Shown: positions 57,372 to 63,585 of the stretch, piece after piece
How the letters are laid out: each line of letters begins with the position of its first letter
Position numbering within the stretch: the stretch's first letter is position 1
NCBI GenBank assembly: GCA_903824295.1
Contig: CAIJWE010000030.1
Span: 62,001 to 126,000, forward strand
DNA length: 64,000 nt
From: an uncultured Chlorobiaceae bacterium
GTDB lineage: Bacteria > Bacteroidota > Chlorobiia > Chlorobiales > Chlorobiaceae
Direction: 5' to 3'
Notes under the pieces: model-generated
Told to the model about the DNA's origin: nothing
What the model saw: the letters and a program-made list of their open reading frames with translations, nothing else
Databases searched by the model: none
Position numbers and translations under genes: made by a program

Positions 57372-58484
57372 TTACCCGGCAAGGTTTCCTGATTCGGAAA
57401 TTTTAGGTTTCGGAGTCTGGATATGTGATGCATCCATATTCTTGATCTGCATAACCAGTTGTACCGTATTGGTCACCAGTTCCCTGACTGACCGTTTCAC
57501 ATAGCGGCTTTTGAAAAACGAGTTGTAATTGTTTTCGGTATCCTCAGCAATCCATCCTCTGCTCCAGCCAAGAAAATTAAATGGAGGCAAGGTAAAACCA
57601 AGGTCAGTGAAAAACGAATTGAGATTTCCGGCTACCCCCTGAACATTATCCTGTCCGCCAGTAATAATGAACGAAGCCACCTTATTTTTGATCAATACCT
57701 TGTCATGAAGAGTTATCTGATTCTGTACCGTGTTAAGGCGTTCAGCCATTTTATAATAAAGCGATGACGCATTACCCCACCTGATTGGTGTGGCGAGGAT
57801 TACGGCATCCGCCCACAAGACCATTGCTCGGTAAATTTCATTCATCCCGTCCTCTCCATCCATTTCCGATATGGAACAGGGCCAGGTACAGGCTTTCTCA
57901 TGACGGCTGTAGTACCCTTCACAATGCCTGAAATTCAAATCTCTTATCCTGATCATTTTCGTTGAAGCCCCAAACTCGGAGACTGCAAAATCGAGAGCCT
58001 GCTGCAATGCGGTTTCAGAGGTAGAGGGGCGGGGCAGAGCACGATGCATATTGGTCGTGGAAATACCAAGCACATTAAGACTCTTCTCCGTGGTCTGATA
58101 ATCAAGTTTTCTGAGATCGGCAACAGGATCCAGGTCGTGGAATGCCTTGAAAGCCTTTGTGACGGGCTCTTCCGACACCAGGATCATGCCGTTCTCAATA
58201 ACGACCTCATAGAGCGCCTGTCGATCCTTATAACCATGAGGGGCCTGGCCGCCCTTCAGGCTGTACTGCCACCCATGCCAGGGACAAGCCACGTAAAGCT
58301 CTCCGTCGTCAAGCGTCTGGATAAATCCCTGCCCGAGATCACCCCCCCGGTGAACACAGGTGTTCTCAAGGGCGGTAATGACACCTCTGTAATGAAACAG
58401 GGCAATGCTTTTTTTGCCAAGCCTGACTGATTTATGACTGTTTTCAGGCAGTTCCGATAAAGGAATGAGCGGAATGTATGACAT
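57372..58484 (-). CDS. Rieske - flavodoxin-like fusion protein
   Basis: A 370-residue soluble fusion. Residues 5-110 form a Rieske [2Fe-2S] domain with Cys43-x-His45 and Cys67-x2-His70 (CVHRGGDLG, CPWHGWQY), of the assimilatory nitrite reductase/ferredoxin kind. Residues 130-320 form a flavodoxin-like NADPH-dependent FMN reductase domain: LGISTTN, ILATPIRWGNASSLYYKMAERL and IITGGQDNVQG. An electron route from pyridine nucleotide or FMN to the Rieske centre (or the reverse) is likely. I do not know a characterised protein of this exact order. It is transcribed alone, with 248 bp of AT-rich DNA towards the carboxypeptidase gene. Confidence 0.88.
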   Translation of the reverse strand: MSYIPLIPLSELPENSHKSVRLGKKSIALFHYRGVITALENTCVHRGGDLGQGFIQTLDDGELYVACPWHGWQYSLKGGQAPHGYKDRQALYEVVIENGMILVSEEPVTKAFKAFHDLDPVADLRKLDYQTTEKSLNVLGISTTNMHRALPRPSTSETALQQALDFAVSEFGASTKMIRIRDLNFRHCEGYYSRHEKACTWPCSISEMDGEDGMNEIYRAMVLWADAVILATPIRWGNASSLYYKMAERLNTVQNQITLHDKVLIKNKVASFIITGGQDNVQGVAGNLNSFFTDLGFTLPPFNFLGWSRGWIAEDTENNYNSFFKSRYVKRSVRELVTNTVQLVMQIKNMDASHIQTPKPKISESGNLAG

Positions 58485-59562: not shown

Positions 59563-60834
59563 TCAGAATGCACTGTAGAGCATAACCGTCGTCTGCTGGT
59601 CACCACTACCGGCAGCAACGTTAGCATCTGCCTTGTCACCGGAATAGATGCTGTGATTCACCTGCAAAACCATATTTTTGGCTATCTGATAGTTTGCGCC
59701 GAAAGAAACCGCATTATATGCGTCGTTGCCACCTTCGCCAGTGTTGGCTGCTCTGTAGCCAAGCCCGACAGAAAGCGTTGACGGGATAACACCCAGTTCC
59801 GTTGCCACGGTAAATGCATTCTTGCTGTCAGCCAAGCTTGCATTATAAACATTAGCTACGCCATCAGCGATGCCATTAGATTTCGCAGCACTACCATAGG
59901 TTGCATAAACGCCAAGGGGAAGACCTCCAACCTTGCCCTGTGCCTGAGCATCAACGGACCATGCATCTGCACGTTCTAATGTTGGATTAGCTTTCAGGCC
60001 AGTCTGTGAATTGCCAGTCCAGATCTGGAAGCCAGCACCAAGATCCCATTCACCAAATTTTTCAGGTGTGACAACGCCTCTGATATAACCGAGGAACTGG
60101 CCGGAAGAAAAACTCGATGCGTCGTCACGGAGATATGGCGTGTAGCTGACATAACCGTATTTATGATAGGCAACAAGAGCAAGGCCTGTTGTTTTGCCAT
60201 CGGTACCAAGATACTGCTGGGCGGAGGTCTCACCGCGATGCTCAAACGCGCGACTGAAACGCAGTGCGCCTGTGTTCAAAAGCTCAAATCCGAAGGCCGG
60301 GCCCTGAGCATCCGTGTAGAAGGGAATCGCGCTTAAAGTGATAGCTTTTGTTGCAGGAAAGACAAACGGGATTTTTATACCATTTAACCCAACCTCTCCT
60401 TTCTTTCCCTCTTCTGCGGCCGTCTTGAGTAACCCTATTTCAGCCTGAAATCCGATGTTCTTTGCCACTTTTCCGCCAAGGGAGAGAAATGCTTCATCCG
60501 GTATCTGGAACTGGCCTGTATTCTTTTCAGTATCTGCCGTACCGTTTGTCTTCTGATACCTGAACTTGGTTATAAGCCCGGCATTAAGTGTTGAAGGAAG
60601 CGAGAGCTTGGTATCCTCAATGGTACCCTGCTTACCGCCCTGAGTGTATCCGTTGGCCTTGAACGTGCGGCCATAGGCGTTGAGTAATGGAAAACGCTGA
60701 AAATGGCAGGCCGCACATGATTGACTGGTTTGTCTTGCAAAGACAGGGGTTGCCGATCCCTCCTGGGGTGATGAAAGTGCCACAAGTGACAGGCAGCCTG
60801 CACTAAAAAGCATCGTTTTTTTGAACATATTCAT
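59563..60834 (-). CDS. Fused monohaem cytochrome - outer-membrane porin, Cyc2-like
   Basis: A 423-residue exported protein. Residues 1-28 look like a signal peptide. A single c-type haem site, Cys40-x-x-Cys43-His44 (SCAACH), follows, preceded by FARQT and followed by FPLLNAYGRTFKANGYT, the arrangement of Cyc2 outer-membrane iron oxidases. The remaining ~350 residues are beta-rich with alternating aromatic residues and end in a terminal Phe, the usual outer-membrane beta-barrel signal. Cyc2 of Acidithiobacillus and Mariprofundus oxidises Fe(II) at the cell surface, and homologues occur in iron-oxidising Chlorobium. The gene lies 174 bp downstream of a c5-like cytochrome gene and has its own terminator. 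Confidence 0.78.
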   Translation of the reverse strand: MNMFKKTMLFSAGCLSLVALSSPQEGSATPVFARQTSQSCAACHFQRFPLLNAYGRTFKANGYTQGGKQGTIEDTKLSLPSTLNAGLITKFRYQKTNGTADTEKNTGQFQIPDEAFLSLGGKVAKNIGFQAEIGLLKTAAEEGKKGEVGLNGIKIPFVFPATKAITLSAIPFYTDAQGPAFGFELLNTGALRFSRAFEHRGETSAQQYLGTDGKTTGLALVAYHKYGYVSYTPYLRDDASSFSSGQFLGYIRGVVTPEKFGEWDLGAGFQIWTGNSQTGLKANPTLERADAWSVDAQAQGKVGGLPLGVYATYGSAAKSNGIADGVANVYNASLADSKNAFTVATELGVIPSTLSVGLGYRAANTGEGGNDAYNAVSFGANYQIAKNMVLQVNHSIYSGDKADANVAAGSGDQQTTVMLYSAF

Positions 60835-61008
60835 AGATTTCTATTGTTTATAGTTATGGTTGAAATATTGGCAATACACCGCCAAATGAATAAAAAAAAC
60901 AGTTAAAGCAAAGCAGGATTGTTTCCCTGTATGATTTCCATAACCTATAAACTATTCAACGGTCTGGAAGTGTTGAATAGGCATGAAAACTTCTTTATAT
61001 GCAAATAT

Positions 61009-61377
61009 TCACTTTGGCTCGATAAGGCATTGATCAACCATATAAGCCACAGCATCAGCGCTCTCGGCAACCGTCAAGGATTCCATTCCTCCCTTGGCTG
61101 GCATATTGTTAAAACCATCAACTGCATGCTTGACAAGATGCTCCATCCCGTGGACCATTCTCGGCTTCCAGTCTGTCAAATCACAAAATTTCGGCGCGTC
61201 CATAACACCGCTGTCATGACAATTAGAACAAACCCGTTCATAGATCTCTTTGCCTTGAGCAATATTATACTTGGCTCGCAAAGCAGCTTTTTCGATAGGA
61301 GCAATCCCTTCAGCACTGACAATTTGCGCCGAACAGATAAAAACAAAAAACAGAGTGGTTACAGCAAAAAATCGCAT
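61009..61377 (-). CDS. Periplasmic monohaem cytochrome c (c5-like)
   Basis: A 122-residue class I cytochrome c. The ATG at 61377 is taken as start, with GGAG eight bases upstream. A signal peptide spans about residues 1-22. The haem site is Cys50-Ser-Asn-Cys53-His54 and the sixth ligand is Met92 in NNMPAKGG, as in cytochrome c5. Two more cysteines (65 and 117) could form a disulfide. It precedes the Cyc2-like gene on the same strand and is a natural electron carrier from the outer membrane to periplasmic or photosynthetic acceptors. Confidence 0.88.
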   Translation of the reverse strand: MRFFAVTTLFFVFICSAQIVSAEGIAPIEKAALRAKYNIAQGKEIYERVCSNCHDSGVMDAPKFCDLTDWKPRMVHGMEHLVKHAVDGFNNMPAKGGMESLTVAESADAVAYMVDQCLIEPK

Positions 61378-61838
61378 AGTGATTGTCTCCAATGTTTAAA
61401 CGTTTATCTCTTATTTATTAATAAATTATTTGATCAGAACAGCAACAAATCCACATTGTGACAAGCGCTCCACAAGATTTGATTCTGGAGGAAAAAGATC
61501 ACACAGAAAACAGATACATACGTAAATCATAAAAAAAATGCCCAACCTCTTGAAAAATATGTTAGACAAATATTGAGGTGTTTTGGACAGGATTACAGAA
61601 CGTCTTTTCGCTGATCTCTTATGAGTTATTTTCAGTACGTTTGTTCATAATCTTATTGAAATAGGTCTCCTGAAAGTAAATCAATCAGTCATGCCTCTTT
61701 TATAAGCGCTTCACAAGAATTGATTCCGTAGTAAATAAAGGCCAGACATCAAGGAGTCAGGTTTGGATGACTTGAGATCCGGAATATGTCAACAAAGAAG
61801 TCGCTTTTTTTGAAAAAAATTATTCTTTTTTGTCCGGG
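61378..61838. other. Noncoding region between cytochrome gene and IS element
   Basis: 461 bp, AT-rich, no gene. It contains two copies of a degenerate 30-bp word: one starting at 61462 (AAGCGCTCCACAAGATTTGA) and one starting at 61706 (AAGCGCTTCACAAGAATTGA). A related word occurs near 63553, just before a transposase remnant. Confidence 0.55.
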
Positions 61839-62807
61839 TTAAGCACTACTTCCCGGAGTACACTCCATTGCTTGACTGACCGAGACCTGCTCTGCTCTTT
61901 TCCGATAGCCTTGTCTTTTGCTGCCGGAGTACACTCCATTGCTTGACTGACCGGTGCGCATCTGTTCCGGTGTTACATACCCGATCGTAGAGTGCAAATG
62001 CTCGGTATTGTACCAGTGCACAAATTCGGCCAGCCATAACCTTGCCTCATTCAGATCTTCAAATCGACCAGGATAATTCACCCGGTACTTCATCGTTTTA
62101 AACAGCGATTCAATAAACGGGTTGTCATTACTTGTTCTCGGTCGACTATGCGATACATCAACCTTCAACTCTCGGAGTAATGCCATCAGGGTAATGCCTT
62201 TCATGGGGCCTCCATTGTCTGCATGCAGAGCCTTTAGCTTGACCTTCCGGCCATTCAGGATGCGCTCAAACAGATCCCTGCTATGACTGCCACTCTCTTC
62301 TTCATGAACCGCCCAACCGACAATACTCTTGTCAAAAATGTCGGTAACCACATAGGCATAGAAAAAAAGACCTTTTACACTCCGTGCCATATACGTGATA
62401 TCCCATGTGTATACCTGATCCGATGCCGTCGCTACTCTTTCGGGCGGTTTAGCATGCCCTTTCCGTACCCTCAAATTGCTCCGGTGGTGCAGCATATCAC
62501 TTTCTTTCAACACCCGGTACACTGTCCGGACCGATGCCAAATAGCAGTTTTCATTGAGCAACAGGGCAACAATCTCATAGGGATTCAGATCCCGAAATCG
62601 CGGTGCGTTACATTGCGCAACAATTTCTTTTTTCATCTCAGGCGACAACTTTCTGACAACACGCTTCTTTGATCCTTTGCGTTGATCCTGTAACTCTCCA
62701 CGTTTCCACCGTTGCAGGGTTCGCAGAGAAATACCCACAACCTCGCACGCCTTATGATACCTCGCTCCATTGCTATGCGCCTCCTCTATCAAAGGAATAA
62801 TCTCCAA
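61839..62807 (-). CDS. IS3-type transposase, DDE catalytic subunit (orfB)
   Basis: A 322-residue integrase-fold transposase. A helix-turn-helix (VVGISLRTLQRWKRG) is followed by the HTH_21-like region and the catalytic core: Asp in YTWDITYM, Asp in LHADNGGPM, and Glu in NDNPFIESLFKTMKY. The first possible start in this frame is the TTG at 62807. The frame is open for about a dozen codons upstream, to a TGA inside orfA. Relative to orfA it is in the +1 frame, so a -1 slip on the A-run near 62875 would not lead into it. Its last ~25 residues come from a local duplication. Confidence 0.92.
   Translation of the reverse strand: MEIIPLIEEAHSNGARYHKACEVVGISLRTLQRWKRGELQDQRKGSKKRVVRKLSPEMKKEIVAQCNAPRFRDLNPYEIVALLLNENCYLASVRTVYRVLKESDMLHHRSNLRVRKGHAKPPERVATASDQVYTWDITYMARSVKGLFFYAYVVTDIFDKSIVGWAVHEEESGSHSRDLFERILNGRKVKLKALHADNGGPMKGITLMALLRELKVDVSHSRPRTSNDNPFIESLFKTMKYRVNYPGRFEDLNEARLWLAEFVHWYNTEHLHSTIGYVTPEQMRTGQSSNGVYSGSKRQGYRKRAEQVSVSQAMECTPGSSA
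61853..61953. repeat. 30-bp direct repeat in the transposase 3' end
   Basis: Two identical 30-bp copies at 61853-61882 and 61924-61953, 71 bp apart. Because 71 is not a multiple of three they are read in different frames: the upstream copy in the gene gives QSSNGVYSG, the downstream copy SQAMECTPG. Confidence 0.9.
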
Positions 62808-62823
62808 CCGATGCGCATCAAGG

Positions 62824-63309
62824 TTAGCCGTCCTTTTGATCCGTCATAAGAGCATCGAGCTTTTTTTTTAACAGAAGAAGTGCTGCTGCCTCAGCCAAAG
62901 CCTTCTCCTTACGTTGAAGCTCTCTCTCAAGCTCTTGGTTTCTCTTCTTTAAGGCTTTAAGCTCCTGATCCTTTTTGTCGTTTTTCTTCTCAATCATCTC
63001 TCGGAGTTCCTGATCCCAGATCGTTAAGTGTTCTGAATGCAAACCACGTTCTCTGAGAAATCCACCCAGTTGTTCGTTATCAATGCTGGCAGCTTCAAGC
63101 ACCAACTGGTATTTCTCTTTCGGGGTCATGAATCGTGGACTGCTCTCTTGACTGCCGTCTGGTAAGATACCCGATTCACTCTGTTTGATCCAATTCCGAA
63201 TTGTCTGATCATTAATGCCGGTTTCTCGGCTTACCGCCACGATACTTTGCGCATCAGGTGGCAAGACTTTTTTCAGCACACTTACCCTCACTGCTTGGGA
63301 ATATCCCAT
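62824..63309 (-). CDS. IS3-type transposase, DNA-binding subunit (orfA)
   Basis: A 161-residue protein with two helix-turn-helix segments (around residues 15-45 and 60-95, the first with ETGINDQTIRNWIKQ) and a C-terminal coiled coil rich in Lys and Glu (KKNDKKDQELKALKKRNQEL). An A-run (nine A on the coding strand, 62871-62879) lies near the 3' end. The start ATG at 63309 has AAGGAGG nearby upstream. Confidence 0.9.
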   Translation of the reverse strand: MGYSQAVRVSVLKKVLPPDAQSIVAVSRETGINDQTIRNWIKQSESGILPDGSQESSPRFMTPKEKYQLVLEAASIDNEQLGGFLRERGLHSEHLTIWDQELREMIEKKNDKKDQELKALKKRNQELERELQRKEKALAEAAALLLLKKKLDALMTDQKDG

Positions 63310-63585
63310 AATTCGCCTCCTTGTTGGACGCGAAATCTATATTAACACATAGGGATGCAGTGAAAACATATAGTAAATGATAACAACTGTTAACCTTAAT
63401 ATAAAAAAAACTTTAATCTTTTTTTAAGAATCATCATAAAACGCGTAATACACAACTGTAATACGTATTTTATCGCGCAAAAGAAAAGGGATGTATCGAT
63501 TTATTTTCAATTGTTGTGTTTTAAAGGGCTTGATCATTGACTGGCAAGTGCCAAGCGATCAACAAGAATTGGTTGAGCAATAAAT
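63310..63585. other. Noncoding region beside the IS element
   Basis: 276 bp, AT-rich up to 63520. It contains the orfA upstream region and probably one IS end. I see no gene. From 63541 it holds CTGGCAAGTGCCAAG and the AAGCGATCAACAAGAATTGG word related to those at 61462 and 61706. Confidence 0.4.

Follow-up and report, generated by a model that had tools for sequence, protein, structure and literature searches.

A Cyc2-family cytochrome-porin gene and an adjacent c5-like cytochrome gene in a Chlorobium-type green sulfur bacterium

Fe(II) oxidation is an activity of the cytochrome-porin Cyc2 from Mariprofundus ferrooxydans PV-1, which has been examined biochemically (PMC8406198), and Cyc2 has been defined by the motif AXPXFAR[Q/K][T/Y], a single CXXCH, a PXL element and a length over 365 aa (Keffer et al. 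2021, PMC8406198). The Cyc2 of Chlorobium was assigned to Cluster 1, in which campylobacterotal relatives are also placed (PMC8406198, PMC12442345). Of the species-level groups of Chlorobium, about 40% carry Cyc2 (PMC8125076), whose function in the Chlorobi is still untested in culture (PMC9342728). In C. phaeoferrooxidans, a described photoferrotroph, Cyc2 is present and the usual oxidative sulfur pathways are absent (PMC5374249). The locus described here very probably encodes a Cyc2-family cytochrome-porin, apparently of the neutrophilic Cluster 1 type, together with a dedicated periplasmic cytochrome of the c5/c-555 type, in a Chlorobium-type green sulfur bacterium.

The source genome (2.85 Mb, near-complete) encodes the FMO bacteriochlorophyll protein, the gene for which shares a contig with the cytochrome-porin and cytochrome pair, and DsrA, results identifying the host as a Chlorobium-type green sulfur bacterium with a sulfur-oxidation pathway. 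No match to SoxB was obtained in the source genome. Both genes are on the minus strand, at the coordinates given in the original prediction, with the cytochrome-porin gene located 174 bp downstream of the gene encoding the small cytochrome (Table 1). A six-frame search of the window, the entire 64-kb stretch of DNA that was analysed, revealed one occurrence of the extended Cyc2 motif, and CxxCH sites in open frames of more than 101 codons were found in these two genes only.

Table 1. Positions of the gene pair and its elements in the window.
Feature	Position	Strand	Details
Cyc2-type fused cytochrome-porin gene	59563..60834	minus	423 aa; signal peptide, haem site, putative outer-membrane barrel
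Codons for residues 28-52: Cyc2 motif, haem attachment site and PxL (ATPVFARQTSQSCAACHFQRFPLLN)	60679..60753	minus	
c5/c-555-class monohaem cytochrome c gene	61009..61377	minus	122 aa from ATG; signal peptide, CSNCH, Met in NNMPAKGG
Intergenic gap between both genes	60835..61008	minus	174 bp; 60-379 bp in Chlorobium homologues

The deduced sequence of the cytochrome-porin revealed ATPVFARQT at residues 28-36, in accord with AXPXFAR[Q/K][T/Y], just upstream of the haem site. The full stretch reads ATPVFARQT-SQS-CAACH-FQRF-PLL, with PxL located 4 residues past CxxCH. The original prediction had assigned the Cyc2 plan to this protein on the basis of a single CxxCH (Cys40-Cys43-His44) joined directly to a beta-barrel-like region, FPLLNAYGRTFKANGYT following the haem, and a C-terminal Phe. 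The CxxCH, FPLLNAYGRTFKANGYT and the terminal Phe, which is residue 423, were all confirmed. With a length of 423 aa compared to the Cyc2 minimum of 365 aa, the protein has every published sequence feature of Cyc2 (motif, single CxxCH, PxL and length), and it shares a clade with Chlorobium homologues as described below, results upholding the Cyc2 assignment. None of the Pfam and NCBIfam models matched the cytochrome-porin. The signal peptides of this protein and of the small cytochrome were judged by eye. The dN/dS values versus the nearest relatives were ~0.09-0.19 for the cytochrome-porin and 0.11-0.25 for the small cytochrome, indicating that both genes are under purifying selection. Since homologues span the full length of the cytochrome-porin and dN/dS is low, the open reading frame is not a product of chance.

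Homologues were sought in 86 Chlorobiaceae genomes, 65 of which belong to the same genus as the host. Full-length homologues of the cytochrome-porin were present in 22 of the 86 genomes counting that of the host, all 22 within the 65-genome genus, and those in 21 of the 64 other genomes of the genus were 54-78% identical to the host protein. The 22 proteins and a homologue from a Campylobacterota MAG, the latter 45% identical to the host protein, formed a single clade designated group I (SH-aLRT 97-99, group 99*). As published work puts the Chlorobium and the campylobacterotal proteins alike in Cluster 1, membership of this clade would place the host protein there indirectly. The clade includes a 57-59%-identical homologue in genome G025 that has the same neighbour gene. 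Profile comparison matched the protein to proteobacterial and campylobacterotal homologues over 357 columns (E 2e-39), a span that reaches into the barrel region. The proteobacterial homologues were encoded on plasmids of Acidithiobacillus, Ideonella, Caballeronia, Paraburkholderia and Methylocystis. A scan of viral contigs for further cytochrome-porin homologues returned none. The homologue in a Helicobacteraceae MAG (CANMJR010000019.1, L002 8001-9245) is far closer to Chlorobium Cyc2 than are other Campylobacterota homologues and is without the upstream c5-like neighbour, and its origin would be either inter-phylum transfer or mis-binning.

The closest known system is the Cluster 1 Cyc2 of C. 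ferrooxidans, C. phaeoferrooxidans KB01, Chlorobium sp. N1, Ca. C. masyuteum and C. luteolum, to which the host protein is homologous over its full length and with which it has the motif, haem site, length and genus in common, the host differing in that it keeps DsrA, has one group II paralogue (see below) and has an IS3-type element upstream of the pair. The fused monohaem plan and consensus motif are also those of the Cyc2 of M. ferrooxydans PV-1 as set by the published description (PMC8406198), although PV-1 belongs to another phylum and its electron sink is respiratory, not photosynthetic. The MtrAB, MtoAB and PioAB porin-cytochrome complexes share with Cyc2 the task of electron passage over the outer membrane; however, they enclose a decahaem protein in a barrel of 26 strands whereas the host protein has one haem fused to a putative small barrel. 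No multihaem gene is located next to the pair in the window. At two loci of other genomes (L041 and L050; G026, G025) a large multihaem ORF lies downstream of cyc2 at a distance of ~1.2 kb and contains 14-16 CxxCH sites.

A second family of fused monohaem cytochrome-porins, designated group II, is commoner and widespread in the Chlorobiaceae, where it comprises three subgroups and is exemplified by L004 1501-2850 / L128 4225-5574 (G000:C85) and 57 relatives. The host genome encodes one group II paralogue, as do most genomes of its family. The group II pattern is AxPxFARKY or AxPxWARKY followed by CxxCH and GEAFxNNGYR. Thus, the Cyc2 motif is not fully discriminating, and searches based only on the motif would count group II as Cyc2. 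Three Cyc2 homologues have been reported for Trout Bog Chlorobium (PMC12285243), some of which may belong to group II. The occurrence of AxPxFARKY and CxxCH in group II also raises the question of whether the host protein is a group II cytochrome-porin that shares only the haem motif with Cyc2, an identity with a negligible probability that was ruled out by the tree and motif tests. The host protein is a member of group I (99*) and contains PxL, a feature of all 23 group I sequences and of none of the 58 from group II, and the detectable homology between Cyc2, including the host protein, and group II is limited to ~134 N-terminal columns comprising the haem region.

The small cytochrome matched PF13442 with 50.3 bits (cut-off 27), and the best PDB matches were 8hn3 and 4j20 (cytochromes c-556 and c-555) with E values of 7e-18 and 2e-17. 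The original prediction described the neighbour as a signal-bearing cytochrome c with a Met ligand, in agreement with the CSNCH site and with Met92 in NNMPAKGG, which is invariant in 20 relatives. By these sequence features the protein is classified as an exported class I cytochrome c of the c5/c-555 type that likely functions as a periplasmic electron carrier. It aligned over the whole domain with the green sulfur bacterial cytochrome c-555 (PDB 4j20) and cytochrome c5, with CxxCH and MPAKGG in common, yet it is a separate paralogue linked to cyc2 and contains an additional pair of cysteines (Cys66, Cys117). Elsewhere, the host genome encodes at least five other c5-like domains.

Of the 22 group I loci, all but that of G051 (21 loci) have a c5-like gene directly upstream of the cytochrome-porin gene and on the same strand, at a distance of 60-379 bp. 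In contrast, a c5-like neighbour was found within 400 bp at 2 of 58 group II loci, for which the flanks were shorter than those for group I. This contrast is the best evidence that both genes work together. The plasmid-borne homologues of A. ferrooxidans, Ideonella, Caballeronia, Methylocystis and Acidiphilium also adjoin genes encoding c-type cytochromes. An adjacent c5 cytochrome is reportedly discussed in a 2020 paper on Chlorobia cyc2 in ISME J. Transcription of the pair as one transcript found no support in promoter and terminator scans, the results of which were at chance level.

An outer-membrane barrel fold, for which the original prediction expected 16 strands, is likely for the cytochrome-porin, as judged from indirect evidence. 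Matches to Porin_4 were obtained for 9 of 23 relatives and to the YadA anchor for 14, the C-terminal residue is aromatic in 23 of 23, and period-2 hydropathy is in excess (p = 0.02). A simple count of amphipathic strands was not above that of shuffled sequences, a profile search with the cytochrome-porin matched no porins in the PDB, and AlphaFold2 supplied with three sequences returned a mean pLDDT of 27. The only invariant His among the 23 relatives is that of CxxCH, and there is no invariant Met beyond the start. Lys59 is invariant in the 23 relatives and its counterpart is also invariant in distant homologues; Tyr63 is a further invariant residue close to the haem site. The distal position could therefore be vacant or occupied by Lys or Tyr. 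The presence of one haem only, with no conserved His or Met as distal ligand in the 23 relatives, would also be expected if the protein were a solute or metal porin of the outer membrane whose haem is sensing or structural, with no net import of electrons. This alternative is very unlikely, since adjacency to a soluble carrier is kept across the genus and adjacency to c-type cytochromes is found in other phyla, and electron import by a cytochrome-porin and its carrier is the preferred interpretation.

The surroundings of the pair were also inspected. An IS3-type element on the minus strand (window 61839-63309), composed of an HTH_Tnp_1 ORF and an rve integrase ORF, lies between the pair and the genes found upstream of it in the relative locus L001, and a 30-nt exact direct repeat (61853-61882, 61924-61953) is located at the end of the element. 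Mobility of the pair as a bare cassette had been suggested by the finding that only the pair itself matched L001 near the end of the window; the idea was dropped for this genome pair because the upstream genes of L001 lie just past the window end with the IS element between. In G028 the genes found downstream in the window are on a different contig from cyc2, indicating that the position of cyc2 varies across the genus. Three copies of a 23-nt motif (AAGCGCTTCACAAGAATTGATTC) were located, two of them upstream of the c5 gene (61463-61485, 61704-61726) and one beyond the IS element (63553-63575). The motif was not found in relatives and is possibly a regulatory site or a remnant. A single ORF at 57372-58484 on the minus strand of the window encodes an N-terminal Rieske [2Fe-2S] domain and an FMN-reductase/flavodoxin-like domain.

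A pathway is proposed in which the single haem plugging the barrel would be reduced by dissolved Fe(II) or by some other reductant that is small or located at the outer surface; as in the original prediction, iron as substrate is inferred from what is known of Cyc2. On the periplasmic side, the barrel haem would donate the electron to the Met-ligated small cytochrome, which would in turn deliver it to the photosynthetic reaction centre, either replacing cytochrome c-555 or by way of it. Dissolved extracellular iron can probably serve the host as an electron source. Among genomes of the genus that are ≥90% complete, DsrA is missing in 9 of 20 with group I Cyc2 versus 4 of 29 without it (Fisher p = 0.02, kinship uncorrected), a distribution that fits, although it does not prove, iron as an alternative donor. 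Since the host has DsrA, iron is not its sole possible donor. The same cytochrome-porin and carrier could instead accept electrons from a different extracellular source, be it reduced humic matter, sulfur species, an electrode or a second cell, and not from dissolved Fe(II). This alternative is consistent with DsrA being encoded by the host and by half of the Cyc2-bearing genomes, and with the discussion of Trout Bog Chlorobium with Cyc2 homologues as electrotrophs cycling dissolved organic matter (PMC12285243). It is nonetheless considered unlikely, as DsrA is missing from all four genomes whose Cyc2 proteins are nearest to that of the host (G063, G028, G024 and G042), as it is for the usual oxidative sulfur pathways in the photoferrotroph C. 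phaeoferrooxidans, and dissolved iron is retained as the probable donor.

The Cyc2 of Chlorobium has already been described, and the host pair is a sound further example of a known system. A tentative proposal, which may well prove incorrect, is that cyc2 and c5 constitute a fixed two-gene uptake module feeding the reaction centre via its own c-555 paralogue, while group II proteins combine this haem plug with a barrel of another kind that serves a different substrate. If so, motif-based searches would overcount iron oxidisers among green sulfur bacteria. The contrast with group II indicates that a criterion based only on the haem motif is not strict enough. Cyc2 is the marker used for iron-driven photosynthesis in green sulfur bacteria, and the near-constant c5-like neighbour adds a further marker that can be checked, as well as a specific candidate for the periplasmic step that is still missing.
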